NCBI RefSeq assembly: GCF_000373965.1
Contig: NZ_KB892839.1
Coordinates: forward strand, 121,722 to 178,317
Direction: 5' to 3'
Length of the DNA stretch: 56,596 bases
Source of the DNA: Uliginosibacterium gangwonense DSM 18521
Lineage (GTDB): Bacteria; Pseudomonadota; Gammaproteobacteria; Burkholderiales; Rhodocyclaceae
Shown here: positions 1 through 20,472 of the stretch, piece by piece
How the letters are laid out: every line of letters starts with the position of its first letter
Position numbering within the stretch: position 1 is the stretch's first letter
Position numbers and translations under genes: made by a program
Notes under the pieces: model-generated
What the model was told of the DNA's origin: nothing
Seen by the model: the letters and a program-made list of their open reading frames with translations, nothing else
Database searches by the model: none

Positions 1-3000
1 CCCCAACCATGCTTGAGATGAGTTTCGGCCAGAAAGCGTTCTTCGGTAGCGGTGACCTCATGCCTCAAAGTCAGACCTAATCCCAAACCATGCCCGATGG
101 TGTTGCCCTCATTGTTTTTGGCGCAATGCACGACGCAGTGATAATTCATGGGCTCTGATTCCATGATGTTCATGATCTGCTCTGCACTGAGGCGGATGTT
201 GTCTTGGTGGTTTGATGGAGAGCCCTCTTCTGCCTCCAAACGGGCGTTTTGTTCTGTGCTGAGCGTCGAGCGTGGAACGCCTAAAATCATCAGACGGTTG
301 GCGAGGTTGACCTTGCGTGGATCCATCTCGAACACCAGGCGTGTCTCGTTGTAGCCCCTCAGACTGGCATAGGCAGCCTTAACATCCTTGATGCCTGGGA
401 TGGCTGCTTCCACTTCGCGCGCCTTCTTCATGACCGTGCCGAGCTTGAGGTGCGAAGAGACATTATGCTGGGTAGGGTCTTTTTTGGGAACGTTGAGTTC
501 GATGCGGGCTGAATCCTGGACCATGGGTAGGTCCAGTTCGGCAGCGTGGCTCTTTAAGAGCGTTGATTCGGCATCTAGCATGAACTTGCAGGCCAAATGC
601 TCATCCACGTGCTTTGCTTCTGTCGCCAGTGTTTTCATTTGTGCCTTTTTCGCAGGGTCCGCGACCTGTTCGATATTATCTCCATGGCATACTGCCGACT
701 CCATATCCTGCAGTTTGCTGACCCAGGCGCTCAATAGTGTGCGCATGGCATGGCGACCTTCCGTGCTGGTGACGTCAAGAGATTCCAGATTCTCCGCGCC
801 AATTCCAGTCGGCAGAACCCCTTGGGGTATTTCCAGTTTTAGGCCAGGCACTTTGCGAGCATTGTCCAGCAAACTCTTCCAATCGCTGTTTGCAATGGGG
901 GCCGTTTTGACGAAATCCGCTGTGCGTTTGTAGTGAGAGTTCCAGCTTGTTTGCAATTCGGCCGCGGAGACATCCAGCCCCAGGCTCGCGGCTCGGGCAC
1001 TGGCGACTCCCGCGTCAGCTTTTCCTGTCTGGATATTCGGTGCATTGCCGAATCCATAAGCGGTCAAGCCAAGCGATGCACGTGGGCCGGAGTCCCCCTG
1101 ATATTCAAAACCATTGCCTTTGGCGAAGCCCAAGCGCAAATGCAGTTCCATGGCGACTTTGTGATAGATTTCTAAGCCGAGTGCAGCCCGTAGCCCGAAA
1201 TTGCCATTGAATTTTCCCCGCTTGCCCGCGTCCTGGCCTGGGTTCCATGATGCAGGGTTATGTGCGCCAAATTCTTTATCTTTAGCAAACCAGTCCTGAC
1301 GGGCGACGATTCCTGCACCGCTTCGAATGACGCCTTCGGTTTGCCTCAGATTCAGGCCGATCCCCCCTTGATCGATACCCATCTTCATCAGTTCGAGGGG
1401 AGCGACCTTGTCATCAAAGAGCATGCGGCCAAACTCGTGAACTTTTTCTGGGAGCAATACAATTGCTCCGCCCTTGGCGCGGGTATGCGTACCTTCAAGC
1501 ATAGCATTGGCATAGCCGCCAAAGTGTTTGTTAAGCTCTTCGTTGTGTAAACGCCCGGTTGAGGTTGGGGTCGGCTTTTGCACTGTGGGGGCTATGCCGA
1601 GGTTAGCGCCCATGCTCGCCGTTCCAGCCATGCCGCGCGTCATGAACACGATGACGGGGCCTTGTTCGGTCTGGTTGTGGTTGGAGCCGATGGCTTCTAC
1701 GCCAACGAAGCTTGAGCGGTTGCCGCCAAGGTTGAGGATTCCGCCGTAACTCAGGGTCGCAAGTATGCTGTCATGTTTACCGCCACAAGCGAGGTAGGTG
1801 CCTGCCCCAAGGTTTTTCTGGATGGACCAGCCAAACACCGTGCGTGGGTTGAGCGAATTGACGGTTTCCGCCCATTTGTTTGCCCCGAGTGCGACAAATT
1901 CTTCCTTGGGCATGGTCTTGGCCTGTTGGAGATCGAGATCTGTCTTGACTAACTCGTAAAGTGGGGATCCCGGGGTCAGTCTTGTGCCACGGTTGTTGAT
2001 TTGATCACGCAGATCGGTAACGGCTTCTACCATGGCCTCATAGGCATGCCAGCCTGAAAAACCGCAGTGCGCTAGTTGATTGGCGCGTGCTGTTTTGTGA
2101 GTGGTTTCAATTTCCTTGAGGGCTGATTCTGCCGTAGATGATATTTGCGTAGTGCCAGTGCCGCCTTCCGTTGCATGGACAGTGCCGAAGGTACGAACCT
2201 GAACTGCTTCGGCAAAATGTTTCATGGAAGCGATCAGGGCGGCGGATTGAATCGAATGGCTACCGTGATAGGCGGTGAAGTTCGATAGCGCGCCACGGCG
2301 TCCATCCCAGAGCTTGATATGGTTCTTTTCAAGCAGTCCGATGCAGGTCTTGATCTTGTTGATCGATTGTTGTTCGGCGGGCGAGAAGAAGTGCAGTTTG
2401 TCCTGCCCGATGCTGTCCCAGAACTTCTTGACTTGCGGGAGTGCATCACGGCTGTTGAGAGTGGTCTTGTTCAGTGAATGTGCCGCGAGGCTGGCTACCT
2501 TTCTCATCCTCTCAGGGCTACGTTCCGTGGTGCGGTCCGGTCCCAGCACGTGCGCCGTAATACACATCTGCTCGAGAGCTTCCAGGCAGCTACCCAGGGT
2601 ATCGGCCACGACTCTATTGGCGACCGGGTGAGTCAGCATGTCAGGTTGAGGCGTGGTGATTTTGGCTAGATTGTCGGAGATCGGAGATTGGATATTCGGG
2701 AGACTTTTCATCGTCTCCCGTATCGCCGCATAATCCTTGGCGAGCCCCTTGCGCCCCCACAGGTCTTGCTTGAGGCGTACCAAGGCCATGGGGGGCTCTT
2801 GCACGGTGAGCCGACCGAGCTGATAGACTCGTCGCCCTAAGGCCCGGATCGGTAGTGTGCCGTAGTGAGCCAGCTTTTTGGCGGTGGAGGCGCCTTTCTC
2901 CAGATGCCGGTTGATTGCCGCGTACTGCCCTCCAAGCACCGTCCACTTCAGTGCCGTGCGTTGAGTGCCTAGTACAGGAGGGCGGAATGCATCGTTGCGG

Positions 3001-5714
3001 TCCATCCCAACACGAGGGTCTTCTCGACTTGTGCTGACATCCTTGAGGGTATATCGATGTTCGGTAGTGGGAGCGTATTTACGCACCTTGCCCGGCATAT
3101 GTCCCAGGAATTTGTTCACAGATTTTGGAAGGCAGCGCAGCATTGATTTTGGCTGTGTGCTGTTTGCTTCCGTCGTATGCACGGGGACTTGCAGGATACG
3201 ATAGCGGTCAACGGCTTCACCACCGTTTGCTTCGGCACGTTTCACCTCGATTACGGGGGTGCCGTAAAGCGAGGTCGAGAGCTGGGCGCTATGTTTGCTT
3301 TCATCTGGAATCTCTTTGCCCTGGGCATCTTTCCATTCCAGTGCGCGGTTGACCCACGTTCCCTTGAATTCGTGTGATGCGCTGCCATCCGTATGAGGAT
3401 TCGGCACAAATTCGAGCAAGGCTGGCGGGGTATTTGTGTGTGCGCCATCCTTTTGGGCTAAAGCGAACAATCTCCCGTTGTCGCCAGAGACGGTGATTTG
3501 CTTCGGTGTAAAGGATTGGTCGCCAATCTTTGCTGGAGGCAGATCGAGTCGCTTTCCTTCTGTACCATTACTGGCTCGTTCTGTTTTGGAGATGCTACCG
3601 TGTTGTGTCAGCTGATACATTGCGCCACTTTTGTCGGCGGAGAGGTCAACAATTGGTGAATCGTTTGCATGCTCGGTGATTTCAGCGTGACTGGCGTGCG
3701 TGACATGGGCGTTGGCGATTGCTGGACCAGGGTGGGCCGTCAGGCGATTGGGGCTCAGCCAGGCGGAAGGCGCAGCACCGCCCAGCTCGTTAACCTCGCT
3801 GTGGGCAGGCAGTTGTTTCATGCGTCCACCAATATTAATTTCGTGGATCGAGGTTCGCTCGCCTTCTCCCAGCAAAGCGTAGACTCGCTTGCCGAAGGTT
3901 AATTCGTTTGCTCCGGTAACGATTTTCTGCACATTCTGCATTGGTGAGCCATCGTGCATCCTGAGTTGTTCCCAGCGGCCAATGCCTTGATGCTTGATGC
4001 AGAGTTCCCCCTTGGTGTTCGTTGCCAGATAGGTATTCTGGTCATACTGGATTTTCGTTTCCGGCTTGATGGTTTCCGATTGCAGGCCTTGTTCGCTTTG
4101 CATGATCGTGGCATCGGCTTTGTATTGTGGCACCCATTTCTGCTGGTCATAGACCATAGAAATCCGGTGCCCCTGGTCGCTGGCCAATACAGCATGCAAC
4201 AGCGGGGTGGCAGCTCCAGATGGGGTGTCATAACCGACCGTTTGAACATGCCATTGATGGCCGATATCCAGCGGAATCTGAGTGGCAAGTTTGGCGAACG
4301 CAGCATGCTCACTGGCCTCGGCACCAGTGAGGCGTTGCCAGTGTTGCGTGCCATCCAGGGCTGCAGCCTGGTGCAAGGCTACAAATTCACCGCCCGTCGT
4401 GTGGCCGCACATAAGCTGCCCGCCCGGTACTGGCACGAGGTTTTTGAGCCCGGGCACTTCGGCGAGGAATGTTGCCTGACCATTACTGGTGAGCTGGAAG
4501 GCTTTGCCCGCATGATCGACTGCCACTGCTACAGCTGTTGAGGTGTTCTCGGTGCTCGGCAATACGTGTACGGACTGGTAGCGATCCAGGTTCTGCAGCG
4601 CCGGGCTCAGGGCGGCCTTCCCCAGTTCCAGCGGGTGACAGCGCATAAGCGCATGACCCACATGGGCGTAAAGATTGCCATCGGCATGTTGACTTAATGC
4701 CTGGGCTTCTCCTTGGTGTTGCCAGCTTGGGGGTTCGCCGCCCTTGTTCCAGACATACAGTTTGCCTTGTTCCAAACGCCATGCGGTGCCTTGTTTTTGC
4801 CCTTGGGGTGTGGGCAATTCATATATCCCGCTGAGAAGGCTGATGGGAGGCGCCTGAAGCTCACCCTTGGCCGTCGATTTGACCGCATCGAATGCAGCAA
4901 AGGGAATGTGCTCCCCACGACTGCCGATCCAGCGTCGGCCTCCATTTTTGTATTCCGCCAGGGCGCCATGACTCATGGCGTGAGGTTCAACGTCCCGGCA
5001 GCGGTGACCATCCATTGTCTTCAACGCATTCTGTACGATTTTTGCACGGGCACGCTGCTGTTTGCGTTGGGCACGGTTGAGCTTGCCCAGCCCCGTAGCA
5101 CTGACCTTGACTCGCCCTTCTTTCACGGTGATATGCGGGCCACGGAAGGCAAACTGGCGGTGGGGGCGTTGGGCAAAACCCTGCAATTCAGGCGCATTTC
5201 GTTTGGCAGCCCGTCCGGTTTTCTTGTCGACCGCATGCCCGATCTTGTTGGCTACCACCAACATGTTATGGGTGAGATTGATCGCGGGCCCTTCTACCTT
5301 GAGTCCATATACGCCTTGGTGCTGGAATTTGAGCTGGGCACCCTCAAGTGGTTTGATGCCGACATCGCTGTTCTTGCCGGTGATGGCTGCAGCCAGGTGC
5401 TTGCTTGCAGGAACCAGGGTATCCGCTGCCCGATGCTTGATAGGTTTGACTACGGCGCGCTCCAGGCTCTTCGCAGCACCTTGTACGCCTTTGGCAACAG
5501 CCTGGGCGGCTGATGCGTTGGATGAGGGGGAACTGGTTTCTTCTGGGGATGGGCTCACTTTGCGTGAATGGCGCAAGAGTCCTCCCAGGCGCCCGCCACT
5601 CTGGGTGCGTGCCCTGGTTGGGTTTGATGCTCCCGGAGGAGTTTGAGGTGCTTCGTGTGCCACGCCATGGCCTGTAAAGCAGGATTTGATGCCGGTCAGA
5701 ATCTTGTTTGCCAT
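1..5714 (-). CDS. AvrE/DspE-family-like giant type III effector (partial, C-terminus outside window)
   Basis: This open frame of 1,904 codons reaches the left edge without a stop. I read it as an AvrE/DspE/WtsE-type effector. Known members have about 1,800-1,950 residues, are injected into host cells by the type III system, and have been described as membrane channels that release water and solutes to the apoplast. Seen here: residues 1-90 are Ser/Pro/Thr/Gln-rich like type III signals. Short blade-like blocks recur between about 340 and 760 (DGNLYAHVG near 343, KGELCIKH near 568, DNGRLFAL near 745), which fits a beta-propeller. There is a WxxxE motif (WHAYE) at W1222, and Gly-rich alternating strands lie near 1310-1370. 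ATG 5714 has AAGGA 7-8 bases upstream. The gene lies 134 bases behind a chaperone gene under a PIP box. The family call rests on size, layout and context, not on an alignment. Confidence 0.72.
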   Translation of the reverse strand, partial: MANKILTGIKSCFTGHGVAHEAPQTPPGASNPTRARTQSGGRLGGLLRHSRKVSPSPEETSSPSSNASAAQAVAKGVQGAAKSLERAVVKPIKHRAADTLVPASKHLAAAITGKNSDVGIKPLEGAQLKFQHQGVYGLKVEGPAINLTHNMLVVANKIGHAVDKKTGRAAKRNAPELQGFAQRPHRQFAFRGPHITVKEGRVKVSATGLGKLNRAQRKQQRARAKIVQNALKTMDGHRCRDVEPHAMSHGALAEYKNGGRRWIGSRGEHIPFAAFDAVKSTAKGELQAPPISLLSGIYELPTPQGQKQGTAWRLEQGKLYVWNKGGEPPSWQHQGEAQALSQHADGNLYAHVGHALMRCHPLELGKAALSPALQNLDRYQSVHVLPSTENTSTAVAVAVDHAGKAFQLTSNGQATFLAEVPGLKNLVPVPGGQLMCGHTTGGEFVALHQAAALDGTQHWQRLTGAEASEHAAFAKLATQIPLDIGHQWHVQTVGYDTPSGAATPLLHAVLASDQGHRISMVYDQQKWVPQYKADATIMQSEQGLQSETIKPETKIQYDQNTYLATNTKGELCIKHQGIGRWEQLRMHDGSPMQNVQKIVTGANELTFGKRVYALLGEGERTSIHEINIGGRMKQLPAHSEVNELGGAAPSAWLSPNRLTAHPGPAIANAHVTHASHAEITEHANDSPIVDLSADKSGAMYQLTQHGSISKTERASNGTEGKRLDLPPAKIGDQSFTPKQITVSGDNGRLFALAQKDGAHTNTPPALLEFVPNPHTDGSASHEFKGTWVNRALEWKDAQGKEIPDESKHSAQLSTSLYGTPVIEVKRAEANGGEAVDRYRILQVPVHTTEANSTQPKSMLRCLPKSVNKFLGHMPGKVRKYAPTTEHRYTLKDVSTSREDPRVGMDRNDAFRPPVLGTQRTALKWTVLGGQYAAINRHLEKGASTAKKLAHYGTLPIRALGRRVYQLGRLTVQEPPMALVRLKQDLWGRKGLAKDYAAIRETMKSLPNIQSPISDNLAKITTPQPDMLTHPVANRVVADTLGSCLEALEQMCITAHVLGPDRTTERSPERMRKVASLAAHSLNKTTLNSRDALPQVKKFWDSIGQDKLHFFSPAEQQSINKIKTCIGLLEKNHIKLWDGRRGALSNFTAYHGSHSIQSAALIASMKHFAEAVQVRTFGTVHATEGGTGTTQISSTAESALKEIETTHKTARANQLAHCGFSGWHAYEAMVEAVTDLRDQINNRGTRLTPGSPLYELVKTDLDLQQAKTMPKEEFVALGANKWAETVNSLNPRTVFGWSIQKNLGAGTYLACGGKHDSILATLSYGGILNLGGNRSSFVGVEAIGSNHNQTEQGPVIVFMTRGMAGTASMGANLGIAPTVQKPTPTSTGRLHNEELNKHFGGYANAMLEGTHTRAKGGAIVLLPEKVHEFGRMLFDDKVAPLELMKMGIDQGGIGLNLRQTEGVIRSGAGIVARQDWFAKDKEFGAHNPASWNPGQDAGKRGKFNGNFGLRAALGLEIYHKVAMELHLRLGFAKGNGFEYQGDSGPRASLGLTAYGFGNAPNIQTGKADAGVASARAASLGLDVSAAELQTSWNSHYKRTADFVKTAPIANSDWKSLLDNARKVPGLKLEIPQGVLPTGIGAENLESLDVTSTEGRHAMRTLLSAWVSKLQDMESAVCHGDNIEQVADPAKKAQMKTLATEAKHVDEHLACKFMLDAESTLLKSHAAELDLPMVQDSARIELNVPKKDPTQHNVSSHLKLGTVMKKAREVEAAIPGIKDVKAAYASLRGYNETRLVFEMDPRKVNLANRLMILGVPRSTLSTEQNARLEAEEGSPSNHQDNIRLSAEQIMNIMESEPMNYHCVVHCAKNNEGNTIGHGLGLGLTLRHEVTATEERFLAETHLKHGW

Positions 5715-5848
5715 TTGAATTTCCTTGTTCGACGCTCTTCCCCTGGAAATCAAGAACAAGGAGATAGTGGTCAAAACTCAACGGATGGTCGTAATATGTT
5801 ATATAGATAAGCTCTCAATATGGCATCGCTGACGATGCCTGTGGGGAG

Positions 5849-7389: not shown

Positions 7390-7704
7390 TTACTTGAGCT
7401 TCAGTGTCGGGGTGTCGTCATCACCGTCATCCTCGTCAGGATCTTTGCTCTTTGGTATATCCAGCTGCTTGGGCTTGTTCTGTTGATAGATATTCATCAG
7501 TTGTTGTTCTGCATACGAATTGAACGCCTGGGCGAAGGCTTCGTTTTGTGTGCCTGAATTTGTTGTAGTAGTGTTGTTTCCGTCGTTTTTCTTGTTATTG
7601 GGTTCTTCGGGCTTATTGTTGTGACTATTGTTTTTGCTCGGTTTTTCTGGAGTTGATGTGTCGTAACTGTGGTGATGCGAAGAGGATGAAGAAACTCGGT
7701 TCAT
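7390..7704 (-). CDS. Small polar Asn/Ser/His-rich protein, candidate type III secreted protein
   Basis: A protein of 104 residues that I do not recognise. It opens with a Ser/His run (MNRVSSSSSHHH), continues with an Asn/Lys/Thr-rich disordered stretch to about residue 55, has one amphipathic helix (EAFAQAFNSYAEQQLMNIYQQ, about residues 55-75), and ends with an acidic DEDDGDDD tract. It has no cysteine and almost no aromatic residues outside the helix, which is typical of secreted type III substrates and harpin-like proteins. ATG 7704 is chosen over a TTG 15 bases upstream because AAGGA sits 7-8 bases before it. A perfect PIP box (7839-7863) with a -10-like element lies about 100 bases upstream, so it heads its own HrpB/HrpX-controlled unit. 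Confidence 0.6.
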   Translation of the reverse strand: MNRVSSSSSHHHSYDTSTPEKPSKNNSHNNKPEEPNNKKNDGNNTTTTNSGTQNEAFAQAFNSYAEQQLMNIYQQNKPKQLDIPKSKDPDEDDGDDDTPTLKLK

Positions 7705-7838
7705 GATGATATCCTTCAATTCGATTTTGAATGAAATGTAAGAGTCCAGCTTTTTCCGTAATAATCTGCAGTTACGAACAACGGCAAGATGGATTCATTT
7801 GCAGCGTAACGCGGGGCCGTTCTGGCCTTGATGGAAAG

Positions 7839-7863
7839 ACGAATCATCGATACGAAGTGCGAA
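7839..7863 (-). promoter_or_regulatory. PIP / hrpII box inside the 3' end of the transglycosylase gene
   Basis: On the minus strand the site reads TTCGC-N15-TTCGT. Thirty bases further is TACGCT (7803-7808), a full match to YANNNT. The box overlaps the last codons and stop of the upstream transglycosylase gene and drives the 104-residue gene starting at 7704. Confidence 0.8.
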
Positions 7864-8326
7864 GTTCAACGACCTGCTTTTGCGTGCCGAGTTGGTCGAT
7901 CAGCGCCTTGATGCTGTTAGAGTATTTATCGCGTTCAGATGCGCTCTCTGAATGATAGGCTCCGACGGCTTTCCAATTATTGCCATACTTGTTCATCATT
8001 CTTCTAAGATGCCATGCTCCGATATAAACACTGCTGCAAGAATTCATCAGGTGTTGGCGGGTTATGCCATAGTGTGATAACTCCGGCAGATGAATGGAGT
8101 TGATCTGCATCATGCCGTAGTCGGTTGAACCATTATGATTGACATGGACTGCGTCAGGATGGCCACGAGACTCTTGCCAGGCAATGGCACGTAATACCAG
8201 GTAGTTGACGTGGTGATAGGTAGCGGCTTGCTGAAAACAGTCTGTTGCTGCATATAATGGCTGTGTCAGAAGAAGAGTGGCGGCTATGATGAATGCACGT
8301 GCCAAATGTGTTTTGATAGATCTCAT
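7844..8326 (-). CDS. Periplasmic lytic transglycosylase of type III system (IpgF/HrpH-like)
   Basis: A protein of 160 residues with a Sec signal peptide (RSIKTHLARAFIIAATLLL then QPLYA) and one SLT domain. The catalytic Glu is in AIAWQESRG, followed by the DYGMMQINS signature and later the GAYHSE segment. Such small enzymes open local holes in peptidoglycan so the secretion apparatus can pass. ATG 8326 forms an ATGA overlap with the stop of the upstream chaperone gene, which implies translational coupling; an ATG 12 bases earlier is possible but would add MDSR before the signal peptide. It belongs to the unit led by the repeat protein at 8863-9888. Cysteines near the mature N-terminus and in NSCSSVY could form a disulfide. 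Confidence 0.85.
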   Translation of the reverse strand: MRSIKTHLARAFIIAATLLLTQPLYAATDCFQQAATYHHVNYLVLRAIAWQESRGHPDAVHVNHNGSTDYGMMQINSIHLPELSHYGITRQHLMNSCSSVYIGAWHLRRMMNKYGNNWKAVGAYHSESASERDKYSNSIKALIDQLGTQKQVVELRTSYR

Positions 8327-8778
8327 GCGCGAATCCATAGGAAGGAGCCTTGTGCGAGTTGTTCGAACATTTCATCAGTGGTTTGAAGAATGTTGTCACG
8401 CCAATATCTGCCGTGTTCAGAATAGTGCGCGAGCAAATCTGCCAGCCAAGAGCCATCGATATCGTCATTGAGGTCCACCCGTGCCAGCAGGATGATGCCG
8501 CCTGTGCCTTCGTCGACCCCCATTTGCGCCTGGTCTTGAGCATAAATGGTGATATTGGCTTCAAGCATCAGGCGGAATACAGTCAGTGTCCGTCCTCCGG
8601 TCACGATTCCATATTGGAAGTGGACATACATGGTATCTGGATCGTCATCATAGTTTTCCAGTATGACGTCAAATCCTTCAACCACGATGGCACGTGTCTT
8701 AAGCACGTGGTCAACGGCAGGGATACTGAGTTCATGACAAAGTTCCGTGACGACGTCTGTATAGCGCTGTGTGCTCAT
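8323..8778 (-). CDS. Type III secretion chaperone-like protein (CesT-like)
   Basis: An acidic protein of 151 residues. It starts with an amphipathic helix (TDVVTELCHELSIPAV), continues with beta strands (RAIVVEGFDVILENY; MYVHFQYGIV), and ends with a second helix pair (TTDEMFEQLAQGSFLWIRA). Size, acidity and alpha-beta layout match class I type III chaperones. It lies 84 bases behind the repeat protein gene and overlaps the transglycosylase start by four bases, so the three genes form one unit. Its client may be the repeat protein upstream; that is inference from position. No PIP box with a usable -10 lies immediately before it. Confidence 0.58.
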   Translation of the reverse strand: MSTQRYTDVVTELCHELSIPAVDHVLKTRAIVVEGFDVILENYDDDPDTMYVHFQYGIVTGGRTLTVFRLMLEANITIYAQDQAQMGVDEGTGGIILLARVDLNDDIDGSWLADLLAHYSEHGRYWRDNILQTTDEMFEQLAQGSFLWIRA

Positions 8779-8862: not shown

Positions 8863-9888
8863 TTAACCACCCTGAGAAGATCCTTTGATGTTGGAACTGA
8901 CCGTTTTTGTGATGTTTGCGAGTGATGAGGCAAGGTTCAGCATCTGCTGGTTTTCGGCTGTTACCAGGGTTTGTTTGGTTCCCTCTTCGGCTAAGCGGCG
9001 CATTTCCTGGATGGTAGTGTTCATATCGTTGTGCTCCGTAGGACTCGCGGACGGCGGTGTGCCTGAAGGCTGACGGTGTGCTTTGCTGTGCGCGGGTGAT
9101 GACCCGAATTTCAGACGTGGCTTGACGGAAATGCCAATCGGTTTTTTTTCTTTGTCTGTGTTGTGCCGTGTCTGGGGGATTTTCGTCTTCGGTTCTGTCC
9201 TCGACACGCTGGGTGAGCCCGCAGATTGTTCCCTGTGTGGGGATTCTGGTTGAACCGGTGCCTGGGGTTTCGCTGTTTGCGTGTCAGCAATGGTAGGTTC
9301 GGTCAAATGCGGGGTCGTGAGTGGTGCGTTTTTTAAGCTTGTATTGATCGATATGTCTTTGGGTTTCTGCATTGCATGTGTATCAGAAGTCGTCCCATGC
9401 TTGATGGGATGGCGATTCATAAATCCCGCAATTTTCAGGCGGGGTTTGACACTTATTCCATGGGCTTGTGCTTTGGTTGGCTTAAATGTCTTTTGAGCCG
9501 TTGAGGTCGGGCTTGTAGAGCTTGGTGTTTCAGCTGCGTGAGAGGGCGTGGGCGGTGTTGCAGAACTGCGCTGTAACAATGCAGCGATCTTCAAGCGTGG
9601 TTTGACAGACAGGCCTGATGCAAATGTGGTTTTGGGGGCAGCGGGAGTATTTTGTGCCGGAGGTGCCGCATTTTTTGAGTTGAAAATGCGTGCTGCCAAT
9701 GCCGGGATTTTGAGTTGTGGCTTGACTGAAATGCCCTTGAACTTTGCTTGAGGCGTCAATCCTGAAAGCAGGCCAGAAGGCTGCGTGGCTTGATGGCGAG
9801 CGGGTTCTTGCGGCGTGACTTCAGCGTTGTGATGTTGAGCTTCACTGGGTATCCCATGTATGGACGCATTGTTGATTTTACTGACCAT
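8863..9888 (-). CDS. Pro/Lys-rich repeat protein with pilin-like C-terminal module, candidate type III substrate
   Basis: A protein of 341 residues. Residues 1-285 are disordered (Pro, Ser, Thr, Lys, Gln) and carry a decamer of the form GISVKPRLKI at about 52, 92, 144 and 252, with a worn copy (DISINTSLKN) at 178. Residues 287-341 form a helical module that matches the C-terminal 55 residues of the 72-residue protein at 10249-10467 at 28 of 55 positions, including a shared SLANI core and the final SQGG. There is no cysteine, signal peptide or membrane segment. ATG 9888 is chosen over a GTG 18 bases upstream because AAAGG lies 8 bases before it. It has its own PIP box (10006-10030). I know no described protein with this layout; a filament-associated or translocated protein is inferred. 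Confidence 0.65.
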   Translation of the reverse strand: MVSKINNASIHGIPSEAQHHNAEVTPQEPARHQATQPSGLLSGLTPQAKFKGISVKPQLKIPALAARIFNSKNAAPPAQNTPAAPKTTFASGLSVKPRLKIAALLQRSSATPPTPSHAAETPSSTSPTSTAQKTFKPTKAQAHGISVKPRLKIAGFMNRHPIKHGTTSDTHAMQKPKDISINTSLKNAPLTTPHLTEPTIADTQTAKPQAPVQPESPHREQSAGSPSVSRTEPKTKIPQTRHNTDKEKKPIGISVKPRLKFGSSPAHSKAHRQPSGTPPSASPTEHNDMNTTIQEMRRLAEEGTKQTLVTAENQQMLNLASSLANITKTVSSNIKGSSQGG

Positions 9889-10005
9889 GGTGTTTGCCTT
9901 TCTCACGCTGATTGTTGGCTCAGCTAAAGCGCCTGTTACACTGGCATGAACATTTCCTATTGGTATGTAGTCTAGGTGTCAAGGTGATTGCGAGTGGTAG
10001 AGGTT

Positions 10006-10030
10006 GCGAAGGAATGTCTAGAGTTCCGAA
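10006..10030 (-). promoter_or_regulatory. PIP / hrpII box upstream of repeat protein
   Basis: On the minus strand this is TTCGG-N15-TTCGC, followed after 31 bases by TAGACT (9969-9974), a full YANNNT match. The start codon is ATG 9888, about 80 bases beyond the -10. Confidence 0.85.
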
Positions 10031-10248
10031 TCGCAAGCACTATCCAGGGGGGGCTCGTGATACGCTATTGCCAAGGCATATGATCCTTGCAGTCGAACGA
10101 ATTGGCATGCCTTTTGGCGAAGAGGCGCCTGCAAATGGAGGTGGAATTTCTCAAAGCGAAGCAGGCCGATTGTGAAAAAAGTGCTTGCCACAACCGGCCT
10201 TTGCAACAGACCACACAGATGTGTGGCGGTGAATACCAACGGTAATGC

Positions 10249-10467
10249 TTAGCCGCCTTGCGAAGCACTCTTGATGTTGGAGCCAACACCCTTCATGATG
10301 TTGGCCAGACCTGCAGCGAGGGACAGTTGCAGTTGGTCTTGGGCGGTGGCGATGGTCTGGGCGACACCTTGTTGGGCCATTGAGTGCATGGCGCCGATTG
10401 CTGCGTTGGTGTCGAGGGATGTGCCTAGAGCTGCTGCGCCGGAAGCGCCTACAATGGTTCCTGCCAT
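10249..10467 (-). CDS. Small helical pilin/needle-like protein of the type III system
   Basis: A protein of 72 residues beginning MAGTIVGASGAAALG, with a small-residue-rich N-terminus and an amphipathic helix over residues 20-65 (NAAIGAMHSMAQQGVAQ; LSLAAGLANIMKGVGSNIK). It has no cysteine, tryptophan, tyrosine or phenylalanine. Size and composition resemble Hrp pilus subunits (HrpY, HrpE, HrpA), which are short, helical and poorly conserved, but I cannot assign a family. The start ATG 10467 has AGGAG 7 bases upstream; a TTG two codons earlier is less likely. It stands alone with its own PIP box (10640-10664), as expected for an abundant subunit. Its C-terminal 55 residues recur at the end of the 341-residue protein next door. 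Confidence 0.68.
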   Translation of the reverse strand: MAGTIVGASGAAALGTSLDTNAAIGAMHSMAQQGVAQTIATAQDQLQLSLAAGLANIMKGVGSNIKSASQGG

Positions 10468-10924
10468 GATCAATCTCCTAAAGTTAAAGTACGCAGTACA
10501 TCTGTTCTGAAATGAACACCTTCGTCAGCATCGCTTTGCGATCAAGTGAGTGTTGAACCCCTGCTGGAGAAACCCAACCGAACCGGTGCTTGACGTGAGG
10601 CTAGAATAACGAGTTGTTTTTCCTGCGTAACTCGGCATTACGAAGAAACCGTATTTTATGCGAAGCATCAGAGCGTGTTTCTCTTTGGGTTTTACGCAGC
10701 GGAATTTTCGGTATTCTGACTTGAAGCTTTGAATGTAAGCGGTAGGAAGAATGAGATTGTATTTTATGTAATTAACATATACGGTATGCCTGATTCAATC
10801 GTGGTGCGCATGTTTGCGTAATCGTACCAAGATCAATAAATGGCTTGGCATGCCGTGACACGCCGGAGTATTTTCTGGTTAAGTAATTTATACGTCATTG
10901 TGCTTTTTTAAGCTTGCATGTAAA
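10468..10924. other. Non-coding gap marking the edge of the type III island
   Basis: About 450 AT-rich bases between the pilin-like gene and the lptA terminator. It contains the PIP box at 10640-10664 and no convincing gene on either strand. I see no direct repeats or insertion-sequence ends. Confidence 0.55.
10640..10664 (-). promoter_or_regulatory. PIP / hrpII box upstream of pilin-like gene
   Basis: On the minus strand this is TTCGC-N15-TTCGT, followed after 31 bases by TATTCT (10603-10608), a full YANNNT match. The start codon is ATG 10467, so the leader is about 130 bases. Confidence 0.85.
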
Positions 10925-16750: not shown

Positions 16751-18475
16751 ATGAGGCTCAAACGCGAAACGCTCATGCTTTTGCTGGTACTGGGCTCATT
16801 CCACCTGGGGCTTCTGCAAGATCCTGCCACGCCTTTGAGTAAGGCGATACTGTTGGTCCACCTGGGGCTGGTATTGCTGTGGCAGCGTTTGGTCAGCCCC
16901 AATTATCAGGTGTCTGGCCGGACGCTGGCGGGGATTGTGGCTTTGATCGGTTTGATCGGAGTTTTTATTTCCTGGGGGATGGTACTGGTCTGGAGCCTGA
17001 TGCTGGCGGGCGCAATCGGTGGGCGTTTGTTTGTGCATAGTCAGCCCAGGGCACGGGTACCTTATTGGCTGGCACTGGTCGCCGTGGTGGTCGGGCAGGT
17101 GGGGCTGGTGGTGCCTGAGCTGCTCAAGCTTCAAGGGCAGACAAGTGGCGCCTTGACTATGATAGCTGCCTGGGGTGTGTGGCCACTTTTTCTGCTCATT
17201 ATGGTGATGCCATTGCAAGAGGATGAAACAGCGCAGTCTGGCGAAATGGACTTGGTTGGCAGCCTTTTGATTGTGTTGGTGTTCACGGGCATTATCCTGG
17301 GGGCACTGGCGCTGATGTTCCTCTATAAGCTTGATTATCTGAGCGCCCTGTTTTCTGCCTTGGGGCTGATGGCGGCCTGTCTGCTGATTTTGGCGTGGTT
17401 GTGGGCGCCGCATGGCGGCTCGGCTGGTTTGGGGTTGGAGGTGACTCGCCGCATGCTCTCCGGTGGTGGCGATATGCCATTGGATCGATGGTTGGATCAG
17501 TTGGCGGATCTTGCCATGCAGGATATCAGTCCTGAAAACTTTCTGCGTAGCATGTCGCAGGGCTTGCTGCATTGGCATGGTGTCTGTGGAATGCGTTATG
17601 CGTATGGGGCAGGTGCATGGGTGGTTTGTGGTGAGGAAAGCGCGCAGGGCTATCGATTTGAGCATCGGGGCTTGGTGATTCAAACCTTTACCCGTCAGCC
17701 CCTGGCTAATACTGTGCTCTGGCAGTTGAATCTGCGTTTGCGGATGATGGTGGAAATCCATGCTGCCAAGCTGCAGGCCCGTCAGTTGCAGGCAGATTCC
17801 TACTTGCGTGCGGTCCATGAGACGGGCGCACGCGTCACACACGAGATCAAAAATCTGCTGCAATCTCTGCATGGTTTGTGTTTTGCGGTGATATCCGCAA
17901 AAGACTCAAAGGATGATCGCGCCTATCAGTTATTGCTCAAGCAATTGCCGGTTATTGTGGAACGTCTGGAACAGGCTACGGCCCGGATTCGCAAACCCAG
18001 TGCGCAGAGCATGCGCATGGAGGCAGTGGCGCGCTGGTGGCCGCGTCAGCAGGAACGTTATGCCGATAAGATGATCGTGTGGTGCGGCAATGCCACAGGT
18101 GATCTGGACGGTGAAATACCCGCTGCATTATTTGACAACGTGCTTGATAACCTGTTGGAAAACGCTCTATGCAAAGCAGGCGTGTTGGTCACCGTCACAC
18201 TGTCGGGGAATGTCGCTGGCTGGGAACTGGAGGTGAGTGACGACGGGGCTGCCATCGCTGTTACGCAGGCAGAATCCCTGTTTTTGGCGCCCATGCCTTC
18301 AGATAGCGGGATGGGGATCGGTTTGTATCAGGCGGGGCGTTTGGCCGAATCAGCAGGCTATCACCTGCGATTGCTCCGCAACCGAGATGGCGAAGTCTGC
18401 TTTAGTTTGAAAATGGCCGGAAAGGAACCCCCTCCGGCCATGAGCGATCAAAATACTTCGTGTTCGCCCAGATAG
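16751..18475 (+). CDS. Orphan membrane sensor histidine kinase
   Basis: A protein of 574 residues. About seven hydrophobic segments fill residues 8-225, followed by a GAF-like linker ([18 protein letters not shown]) and a kinase core. The H box is [13 protein letters not shown] with the phospho-accepting His at about 364, the N box is LDNLLENAL, and the G box is [16 protein letters not shown]. It would sense a membrane or intracellular signal and phosphorylate a response regulator, but no regulator gene is adjacent. ATG 16751 has AAAGG 9 bases before it and is preferred over a GTG 18 bases upstream. The 3' end overlaps the convergent rluF-like gene by 28 bases. Confidence 0.85.
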
Positions 18476-20409
18476 CGCCACATGCCAACGGGTAGTTTGG
18501 AGAGCGTGACGCGACCAATGCGGATGCGCTTGAGGCCCACAACGCGCAGCCCCACCAGCTCACACATCCGGCGGATCTGGCGCTTGCGCCCTTCGCGCAG
18601 CACGAAGCGGAGCTGATCCTCATTTTGCCAGCTGACTTTGGCGGGCATCAGTTCGACCCCATCCAGTTCCAGCCCGTGGTTGAGCATCTTCATGCCTTCA
18701 GCGCTCAGATTGCCTTCCACACGCACAAGGTATTCCTTCTCCACCTCGCTGCGTTCCCCGATGATCTGTTTGGCAACTCGCCCATCCTGGGTGAGAACCA
18801 GCAGGCCAGTGGAATCGATATCCAGGCGCCCTGCGGGGGCCAGCTTACGCAGGAAGCGTGACTCGATACGGATCTTGCACGGGTCTTCTTCCCAATGATT
18901 TTCATTGGTGACCAGGACACTGGCGGGCTCATAGCCATCTTCAGCCTGACCGGAAACATAACCAATCGGCTTGTTAATCAGGATGGTGATGCGTTGGTTT
19001 TGCGCTGATTCCGCCTGGATGCTCAACTCGATCTTCTGTTCGGGCTGCACCTTGCTTCCCAGTTGATCCACGACCACGCCATCCACCTTGACCCAGCCGC
19101 GCTCGATGTACTCGTCGGCTTCCCGGCGCGAGCACAGGCCCAGTTCTGTCATGCGTTTGGACAGGCGAACAGAACCTTCCTGATCATCTTCCCGAGGTTT
19201 TGGGAGGCGTTCAGCTTGGCGGGGGCGCCATTCCGAACGCCAATCCTTGCGCTCTTCGCGGGGAGCGGTTTCGTTGTTGGAATACTCGGTTCGCTGGTAT
19301 TTATCTTCTTCCTCCCGGAAGCGCGGCGAACGGCTTGGGCTGCGGCGTTCCTCGGTGAATTGGGGCGCCTCATCACGTCGATCACTGCTGAATCGGCGGC
19401 CTTCGCCGCGTGGGGTATCGCCAGCGGGACGGCGGTCATCAAAGCGTGGGCGGTCTTCGCCGTGAGGGCTGCTTGGACGTTCGTCACGACGGAAGCTGGG
19501 GCGCTCGCCAGAGCGAGAATCCGAATCGGTGCGTGGGCGACGATCTCCGTCAAAACGGCGGCCTTCACCGCGTGGAGCATCATCGTGCGAACGGGCAGGG
19601 CGATCACCAAAGCGTGGGCGGTCTTTGCCTGCGGGGCGACTGGGACGTTCGTCACGACGGAAGCTGGGGCGCTCACCCGTGCGCGAATCGACATCTGTAC
19701 GCGGGCGACGATCTCCATCAAAGCGCCGCCCTTCACTGCGTGAGGCATCACCGTCTGGACGACGATCACCAAAGCGTGGGCGGTCTTCACCGTAGGGACG
19801 GCTGGGGCGTTCGTCACGGCGGAAGTTGGAGCGATCACCAGAACGTGAATCGGAGTCGGTACGCGGGCGACGATCTCCCTCAGAGCGACGACCTTCGCCA
19901 CGTGGAGCATCATCATTCGATCGGGCAGGGCGGTCGCCAAAGCGTGGCCGGTCTTCGCCGTGAGGGCGACTGGGGCGTTCATCACGGCGGAAGTTGGAGC
20001 GATCACCAGAACGTGAATCGGAGTCAGTACGCGGGCGACGATCTCCCTCAAAACGACGGCCTTCACCGCGTGGGGCATCATCATGCGGTCGGGCAGGACG
20101 GTCCCCAAAACGTGGCCGATCTTCGCCATAGGGGCGGATGGGGCGTTCGTCACGACGGAAGTTGGAGCGATCAACGGAGCGAGAATCACCTTCCCGGCCT
20201 GAGCGCGCATCCGAATAGGGGCGACGGCTGTCATCCCTACGCGGGCCTCTTTCCTCTTCATTGCGAGGGCGGGGACGTGGGCGGGGTGTGGAACCGTCAC
20301 GTGCCTCCAGTGCCTTGTTGGCGCCACGAATGGGGCGGCGCGGTGTTTCGCGCTCAGAGCCTTCGGTTTTGGCGGGAAGAGAGAGTCGGCGTGGTTTGGA
20401 GTCAGTCAT
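18448..20409 (-). CDS. rluF: 23S rRNA pseudouridine synthase (RluF-like) with long repetitive N-terminal tail
   Basis: A protein of 653 residues, more than twice the usual size. Residues 415-653 are a normal synthase: an S4 RNA-binding domain ([20 protein letters not shown]), the [10 protein letters not shown] strand, the catalytic Asp530 in [15 protein letters not shown], and the C-terminal [17 protein letters not shown] motif, closer to RluF than to RluB or RsuA. Residues 1-410 are an Arg/Asp/Pro/Gly/Ser-rich, disordered tail with 4.5 tandem units of about 56 residues. The tail resembles RGG/RD-type RNA-binding tails and may tether the enzyme to ribosomal RNA or assembly particles; this is inference. 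ATG 20409 has no strong ribosome site. Confidence 0.88.
19375..20151 (-). repeat. Tandem 168-base coding repeat (4.5 units) in rluF-like gene
   Basis: Units begin at codons 87, 143, 199, 253 and 309 of the protein, each with DERPSRP or close to it, and contain [15 protein letters not shown] and [11 protein letters not shown]. Units are 56, 56, 54, 56 and about 37 residues. DNA identity between units is high by eye, so copy number could vary by recombination. Confidence 0.9.
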
Positions 20410-20472
20410 CAAAAGCTCAATAGACCGCAGCAGGCTCCTTTGGAAAAGGCCCGAATGCGGTAAAAAAGGGGA

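Follow-up and report, generated by a model that had tools for sequence, protein, structure and literature searches.

A repeat-bearing protein that ends in a Hrp pilin module, encoded next to the probable pilin gene of Uliginosibacterium gangwonense: a candidate second pilus component

Introduction

The pilus of plant-type (Hrp) type III secretion systems grows as pilin subunits exported through the system add at the filament end, and we know of no tip protein for such pili. A needle tip protein is described for animal-type injectisomes (PMC3459982). The pilins of plant pathogens, called SctF and including HrpE of Xanthomonas and HrpY of Ralstonia, are described as proteins of 66–113 amino acids (PMC3973906), and HrpE is described as having a variable N-terminal half and a conserved helical C-terminal half (PMC6026121). 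Here we describe a 341-residue protein from Uliginosibacterium gangwonense DSM 18521 that ends in a predicted Hrp pilin module, has about 285 additional N-terminal residues with repeats, and is encoded next to a 72-residue protein that is very likely the pilin itself. Both genes lie in a stretch of 56,596 nt (NZ_KB892839.1, positions 121,722 to 178,317; C6:121722-178317 of the 5.02-Mb genome). We refer to this stretch as the window and use its coordinates unless the contig, C6, is named.

Two described proteins come closest to the 341-residue protein. NopB of rhizobia is a type III-secreted second pilus protein whose conserved C-terminus binds the major pilin NopA (PMC3973906). It offers a precedent by analogy, as a likeness by description, for a second type III pilus protein that binds the pilin; its C-terminus is reported as FlgK-like, and we noted there no claim of a module shared with the pilin (PMC3973906). 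HpaT of Xanthomonas translucens and others, likewise compared by description, has a PIP box, repeats and hpaH nearby, as the 341-residue protein does (PMC5483457). HpaT is reported to go with the absence of HrpF, whereas HrpF/NolX is present together with the 341-residue protein.

Results

Two neighbouring genes share a C-terminal pilin module

The genes of interest follow one another on the minus strand in the order 72-residue protein (10249..10467), 341-residue protein (8863..9888), HpaB-like chaperone and HpaH/IagB-like transglycosylase. Residues 288–341 of the larger protein (8866..9027, minus strand) align without gaps to residues 19–72 of the smaller one; 28 of the 54 positions are identical and both sequences end in SQGG. 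The Smith–Waterman score of the module against the 72-residue protein was 137, as compared with a mean of 25.6 (standard deviation 4.8, maximum 50) when the last 60 residues were shuffled 2000 times. A search of the whole genome with the 72-residue protein listed four matches, of which only those at these two genes are convincing (E 7.1e-37 and 2.7e-11); the remaining two (E 0.53 and 1.07) each contain an internal stop. An earlier note on this DNA, made from the sequence alone, had proposed that the two proteins share a pilin-like module, and the sharing is borne out by these comparisons.

To identify the module we used the chaperone gene as an anchor in relatives. The chaperone (8323..8778, minus strand) matches the Pfam CesT family just under the cut-off (E 4e-4) and is 53–61% identical to proteins in 18 plasmid records, several of them labelled CesT-family type III chaperone; by likeness of position and family we call it HpaB. 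An HpaB alignment replaced a two-sequence alignment as the query for locus searches. With the 18 plasmid records, from which 6 regions were fetched, and the best 80 of 133 genome loci, 86 loci were available in total. The genera to which these plasmid records and the 80 loci are assigned belong to the Burkholderiales. The slot directly upstream of hpaB in these relatives commonly holds a protein of 54–89 amino acids. Of the six plasmid records fetched, the one from Mycetohabitans endofungorum labels this protein ‘type III secretion pilus protein SctF’; in the other five it is ‘hypothetical’ or unannotated.

A profile built from 59 distinct slot proteins of 69 of the 86 loci, chosen solely by their place before hpaB, matched the 72-residue protein with E 4.5e-11 and the C-terminus of the 341-residue protein with E 1.7e-6, while the best of 36,744 decoys reached E 1.9. 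As this profile matches both proteins, the outcome that would have spoken against the earlier note, a widespread helix without relation to pilins, does not hold for the module; together with the SctF label, the match argues for its pilin-like character. A second profile, made from 44 distinct slot proteins of 50 loci, gave E 2.6e-13 for the 72-residue protein and E 4.5e-7 for residues 292–340 of the 341-residue protein (lowest E among 36,744 decoys, shuffled or reversed, 2.4). This second profile was trained without our own genome, but its members came from an iterated search that started with the 72-residue protein and whose first iterated profile included the window's own sequences. All its other non-training matches with E <3 among 9186 open reading frames (ORFs) fall in pilin slots, pilin arrays or tailed proteins. 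Within 2.5 kb of hpaB it finds a match with E <0.05 in 58 of the 86 loci, 50 of which supplied training proteins, and none in the remaining 28. The pilin profiles cover the last 49–53 residues of the 341-residue protein, and among 985 ORFs in 98 kb of C6 the 72- and 341-residue proteins are the only matches with E <1. Profile–profile comparison of the module with pilins by hhalign was in agreement (88%, E 3.5e-6, 50 columns).

The 72-residue protein thus resembles the slot pilins of relatives in size, in its place on the side of hpaB and in profile, and by description it is like HrpE and HrpY. Its length lies within the 66–113 residues given above. The gene of a Hrp pilin is further expected between hrpD6 and hpaB; that of the 72-residue protein lies near hpaB, with the 341-residue gene intervening, and a gene that by its position is hrpD6-like lies ∼39 kb away. 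We conclude that it is very likely the Hrp pilin SctF of the HrpE/HrpY type, with secretion and polymerization predicted. The 341-residue protein exceeds the pilin size range and is classed as an extended paralogue and not as an ordinary pilin: its terminal module appears to be related to the pilin by duplication, which would make it an N-terminally extended, lineage-specific member of the family. The build is real and unusual, within the pilin family by its module and apart from it by its architecture.

Codon positions 1, 2 and 3 are identical between pilin and module at 34, 40 and 21 of 54 codons, respectively, a pattern of purifying selection. Identity is higher at columns conserved among other pilins than elsewhere (17/27 vs. 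11/28, p 0.04). Out of 29 sequences compared, the closest to the module is the pilin of the same genome (50%), followed by one at 36%. The 72-residue pilin is itself equally close, at 50%, to a Paraburkholderia pilin (locus L040). In a small tree the two form a pair, the support of 65 being modest, and the branch of the module is longer than that of the pilin (0.61 vs. 0.13).

Other searches returned little. Pfam, NCBIfam and PADLOC scans of the 72- and 341-residue proteins gave no family at cut-off, nor did the larger protein have any NCBIfam match. A sequence search of solved structures yielded weak matches only (E 0.45 or worse), and none when the pilin alignment was used. No match was found when the two proteins were compared with plasmids by tblastn, or when the genome contigs were scanned with a profile of the two-sequence alignment.

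The N-terminal part is polar, basic and repeat-bearing

The N-terminal part of about 285 residues contains 13% Pro, 12% Ala, 11% Ser, 10.5% Thr and 9.5% Lys, has a net charge of +24 and lacks Trp, Tyr and Cys. Four copies of the repeat GISVKPRLKI match at 9–10 of 10 letters; when the N-terminal part was shuffled 2000 times, the best match had 6 of 10. On the minus strand these copies are GISVKPQLKI (residues 52–61, 9706..9735), GLSVKPRLKI (residues 92–101, 9586..9615), GISVKPRLKI (residues 144–153, 9430..9459) and GISVKPRLKF (residues 252–261, 9106..9135). A possible degenerate copy, DISINTSLKN (residues 178–187, 9328..9357, minus strand), matches at 4 of 10 letters, which is no better than shuffles. 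The codons of the four copies have diverged further than their residues, most of which stay alike, and this suggests selection on the protein. A degenerate DNA pattern for VKPxLK occurs genome-wide at just these four places.

The length and the repeats are therefore as the earlier note had described them; its further description of this part as disordered is kept here as probable, judged from composition alone. We also considered the repeat as the Xanthomonas translocation motif, a Pro followed by three basic residues (PMC6638074), which was not supported. Among the other ORFs of the fetched hpaB loci we found no similarity to the N-terminal part (best E 0.27).

Both genes are preceded by hrpII boxes

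Upstream of each of the two genes we found sequences of the form TTCG-N16-TTCG on the minus strand. This is the hrpII or PIP-type box, which stands at a usual distance from a −10 element. The box at 10641..10664 is located ∼174 bp upstream of the pilin start, with a −10-like TATTCT 32 bp further on, and the box at 10007..10030 is ∼119 bp upstream of the start of the 341-residue protein, with a −10-like TAGACT again 32 bp further; both hexamers were identified by eye. The larger gene has a second upstream box at 10098..10121. The window contains seven such boxes as compared with 1.83 expected, seven being reached in 1 of 100 shuffles, and none of the N15 variant. Of the 17 boxes found in 98 kb of C6, 15 are located at ∼96.8–132.4 kb, which corresponds to the secretion cluster. 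With boxes and −10-like hexamers upstream of both, the pilin gene and the 341-residue gene appear to belong to the HrpB regulon, each with a promoter of its own.

Extended and doubled pilins in other genera

Eleven loci from the iterated search (ten Paraburkholderia and one Burkholderia sp. OK233; L030, L034, L037, L043, L044, L045, L046, L052, L058, L071 and L076) carry a gene ∼0.5–1.2 kb downstream of hpaB, on the opposite strand, whose product ends in pilin-like residues. From their likely starts these tailed proteins are 151–199 amino acids long, and an hrpII box lies 61–169 bp upstream of the start in 11/11. A family alignment of ten of them (L045 omitted) compared with an alignment of 14 pilins gave 92% with E 5.6e-7 over the last 30 residues. 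These genes are like the 341-residue gene in adjoining hpaB, in the pilin-like C-terminus and in the hrpII-type box, but differ in strand and in being downstream of hpaB. A RASFAAKP-like stretch in mid-protein is common to most of the ten aligned sequences.

A different arrangement is seen at five loci (four Ralstonia and Burkholderiaceae bacterium 26), where the pilin is followed by a second pilin with an N-terminal part of its own. The pilin pairs score 132–146 each as compared with at most 49 in 1000 shuffles. As these second pilins are in the training set of the 44-protein profile, their E-values there are by construction and the pairwise tests are the ones that count. They are alike in place and C-terminus as well, but with 80–89 amino acids much shorter than the 341-residue protein. 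The N-terminal parts of the tailed proteins and second pilins are unrelated to that of the 341-residue protein and lack GISVKPRLKI. Tandem pilin genes are found in Duganella, Telluria and Massilia. In an order-mate (G067:C1, about 5072930-5074240; loci L015/L016) six small pilin-like genes stand in tandem upstream of hpaB, four of them identical in protein. HpaB itself is present in 4 of 399 genomes of the order, our own included.

In 22 hand-chosen pairs of pilin and longer protein, some of them near-identical, the C-terminus of the longer protein beat all 1000 shuffles against the pilin of its own locus in 14. The tails used in this test begin one codon too soon for L057 and one codon too late for L094; L049, L054 and L069 were started at GTG read as V.

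The earlier note knew of no described protein with this build. Our literature searches agree in that the titles and beginnings of abstracts listed describe no extended or tailed Hrp pilin; the claim has to be narrowed in that other Hrp clusters do encode pilin-tailed proteins or longer second pilins. With the Paraburkholderia-type tails, the Ralstonia second pilins and the tandem pilins, extended or doubled pilins adjoining hpaB look like a recurrent theme, of which the 341-residue protein would be the largest and clearest case.

Gene setting and secretion cluster

The genome encodes a plant-type (Hrp2) type III secretion cluster to the left of the window. HrpD5, HrpB1, HrpB2, the HrpF/NolX translocon (PF05819, E 2e-190) and an AraC-family regulator with a tetratricopeptide repeat (TPR)-like N-terminal part, which we take to be HrpB, were assigned by family models, and the remaining structural genes were putatively assigned from the starts of their sequences. 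The 341-residue protein was also considered as the inner rod SctI/HrpB2; it had no HrpB2 match in the Pfam scan, and a separate HrpB2 is encoded (PF09487, E 1e-22). Next to hpaB lies the gene for the HpaH/IagB-like lytic transglycosylase (7844..8338, minus strand; Pfam SLT, E 2e-20), which matches the NCBIfam IagB model with E 7e-33 and 113 bits, the cut-off being 208.

Several neighbouring genes were noted in passing. The left end of the window (3-5774, minus strand) is occupied by an AvrE-family effector ORF of 2246 amino acids that runs on to C6:120755. In tblastn half of its length aligns with annotated AvrE-family effectors at ∼23% identity. Pfam and NCBIfam models miss it, and it is accompanied by a CesT-like chaperone. 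A Ser/His/Asn-rich protein of 109 amino acids (7390-7719, minus strand) with an hrpII box upstream (7863-7840) is a candidate secreted protein, and a protein of 1240 amino acids adjoining the secretion cluster (C6:115623-119345), which has no Pfam or NCBIfam match, is a possible large effector. At 18448-20412 (minus strand) a protein that we take to be pseudouridine synthase-like begins with a long stretch of repeated units rich in Arg, Asp and Pro.

Discussion

The pairing of a pilin with a repeat-bearing twin suggests a so far undescribed second component of the Hrp pilus. On the reading that we prefer, and to which we give about an even chance, the 341-residue protein is secreted, joins the pilus through its pilin module and displays its N-terminal part. 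Expression would begin with the HrpB-type AraC regulator, which would switch on the pilin gene and the 341-residue gene via their separate hrpII-box promoters. The 341-residue protein would then be exported N-terminus first, and its last 54 residues would dock into the growing pilus, where it would copolymerize as a minor subunit, either along the shaft or at the tip. The basic, proline-rich and repeat-bearing N-terminal part of 285 residues would stay outside and could make contact with the cell wall or the membrane of the plant; it could also mask the pilus. A variable N-terminal and a conserved helical C-terminal half, as described for HrpE, are consistent with an N-terminal side that tolerates additions.

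A number of observations weigh against this reading and against its extension to other genera. An extension of 285 residues may not fit into the filament, as Hrp pilins are described as proteins of no more than 113 amino acids (PMC3973906). The 341-residue protein was found in one genome only and even the 72-residue pilin in 0 of 100 relatives. Several of the 15 hrpII boxes in the cluster are inside genes or were counted without a check for a gene behind them, and a wider look for opposite-strand genes with such boxes downstream of hpaB also gave boxes that no gene follows, genes of unrelated kinds and products with ends unlike pilins. With the 44-protein profile, the Paraburkholderia-type tails reach E <0.05 in 5 of 11 and E <0.5 in 8 of 11 cases, and the match is confined to the last 28–30 residues or so. 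In the pair test (1000 shuffles) weaker values were obtained for L033, L049, L054, L069 and L094 (p 0.002–0.039) and for L078 (p 0.079), the tails of L038 and L040 had no similarity to their own pilin (p 0.63 and 0.76), and the best match was the pilin of the same locus in just 11 of the 22 pairs, ties included.

The strongest competing explanation, although we regard it as unlikely, is that the module serves as a tag for export or chaperone recognition that early substrates have in common, a function that the earlier note had also raised, and that the 341-residue protein is a secreted effector or regulator acting outside the pilus. With its polar start and its richness in Pro, Ser and Thr the N-terminal part does resemble a type III substrate, the gene adjoins hpaB, and in other species pilin-like ends are found on unrelated N-terminal parts. 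Type III signals, however, are normally N-terminal, and the module agrees somewhat better with the pilin at just those columns that are conserved among pilins. For HrpE, too, the export signal is reported to be N-terminal (PMC6026121), whereas the part shared here is C-terminal.

It is less probable still that the 3′ end of the gene is also, or mainly, translated separately, giving a second pilin of 53 residues, with the long ORF a fusion upstream of it. An in-frame ATG (Met289; 9022..9024, minus strand) does stand at the start of the module and has the strongest Shine–Dalgarno pairing among the 12 in-frame ATG, GTG and TTG codons of the gene (−5.8 kcal/mol, as compared with −3.5 for the annotated start); pilins of 54–57 amino acids are common in relatives, and tandem pilin genes occur in Duganella, Telluria, Massilia and the order-mate. 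However, a pairing of −5 kcal/mol or stronger is found at ∼6% of the positions in the gene, and the N-terminal part preserves its repeats at the protein level and has a start and boxes of its own.

That the gene is a decayed duplicate, a pilin copy accidentally fused to a low-complexity ORF and without function, would fit its presence in a single genome and the long branch of the module. We consider this improbable in view of the 341 open codons, the two hrpII boxes, the excess of third-position change, the four repeats kept in protein more than in codons and the related builds elsewhere. Finally, a translocon protein or translocation helper comparable to HpaT of X. translucens is very improbable, since despite the PIP-type box, the repeats and the nearby hpaH that fit the description of HpaT (PMC5483457), HpaT is reported where HrpF is lacking and HrpF/NolX is encoded here, the repeat motif is different, and hpaB separates the 341-residue gene from hpaH.

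Incorporation of the 341-residue protein into the pilus remains our preferred reading, and it may have a wider counterpart. Tentatively, and with less confidence than for the single protein, we propose that Burkholderiales Hrp systems carry an overlooked group of fast-evolving pilin-tailed proteins with variable, probably disordered N-terminal parts, which would be expressed together with the system and built into the pilus as tip or decorating subunits. If this is true, subunits that bear a long foreign segment may be accepted into type III filaments, and the 341-residue protein, with its differently tailed counterparts in other genera, would be a specific candidate, open to test, for the component at the end of the Hrp pilus or on its surface. 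For plant-type type III pili, the pilin-tailed class would then comprise the first candidates known to us for a tip or a coat, with the 341-residue protein of U. gangwonense as the clearest case.

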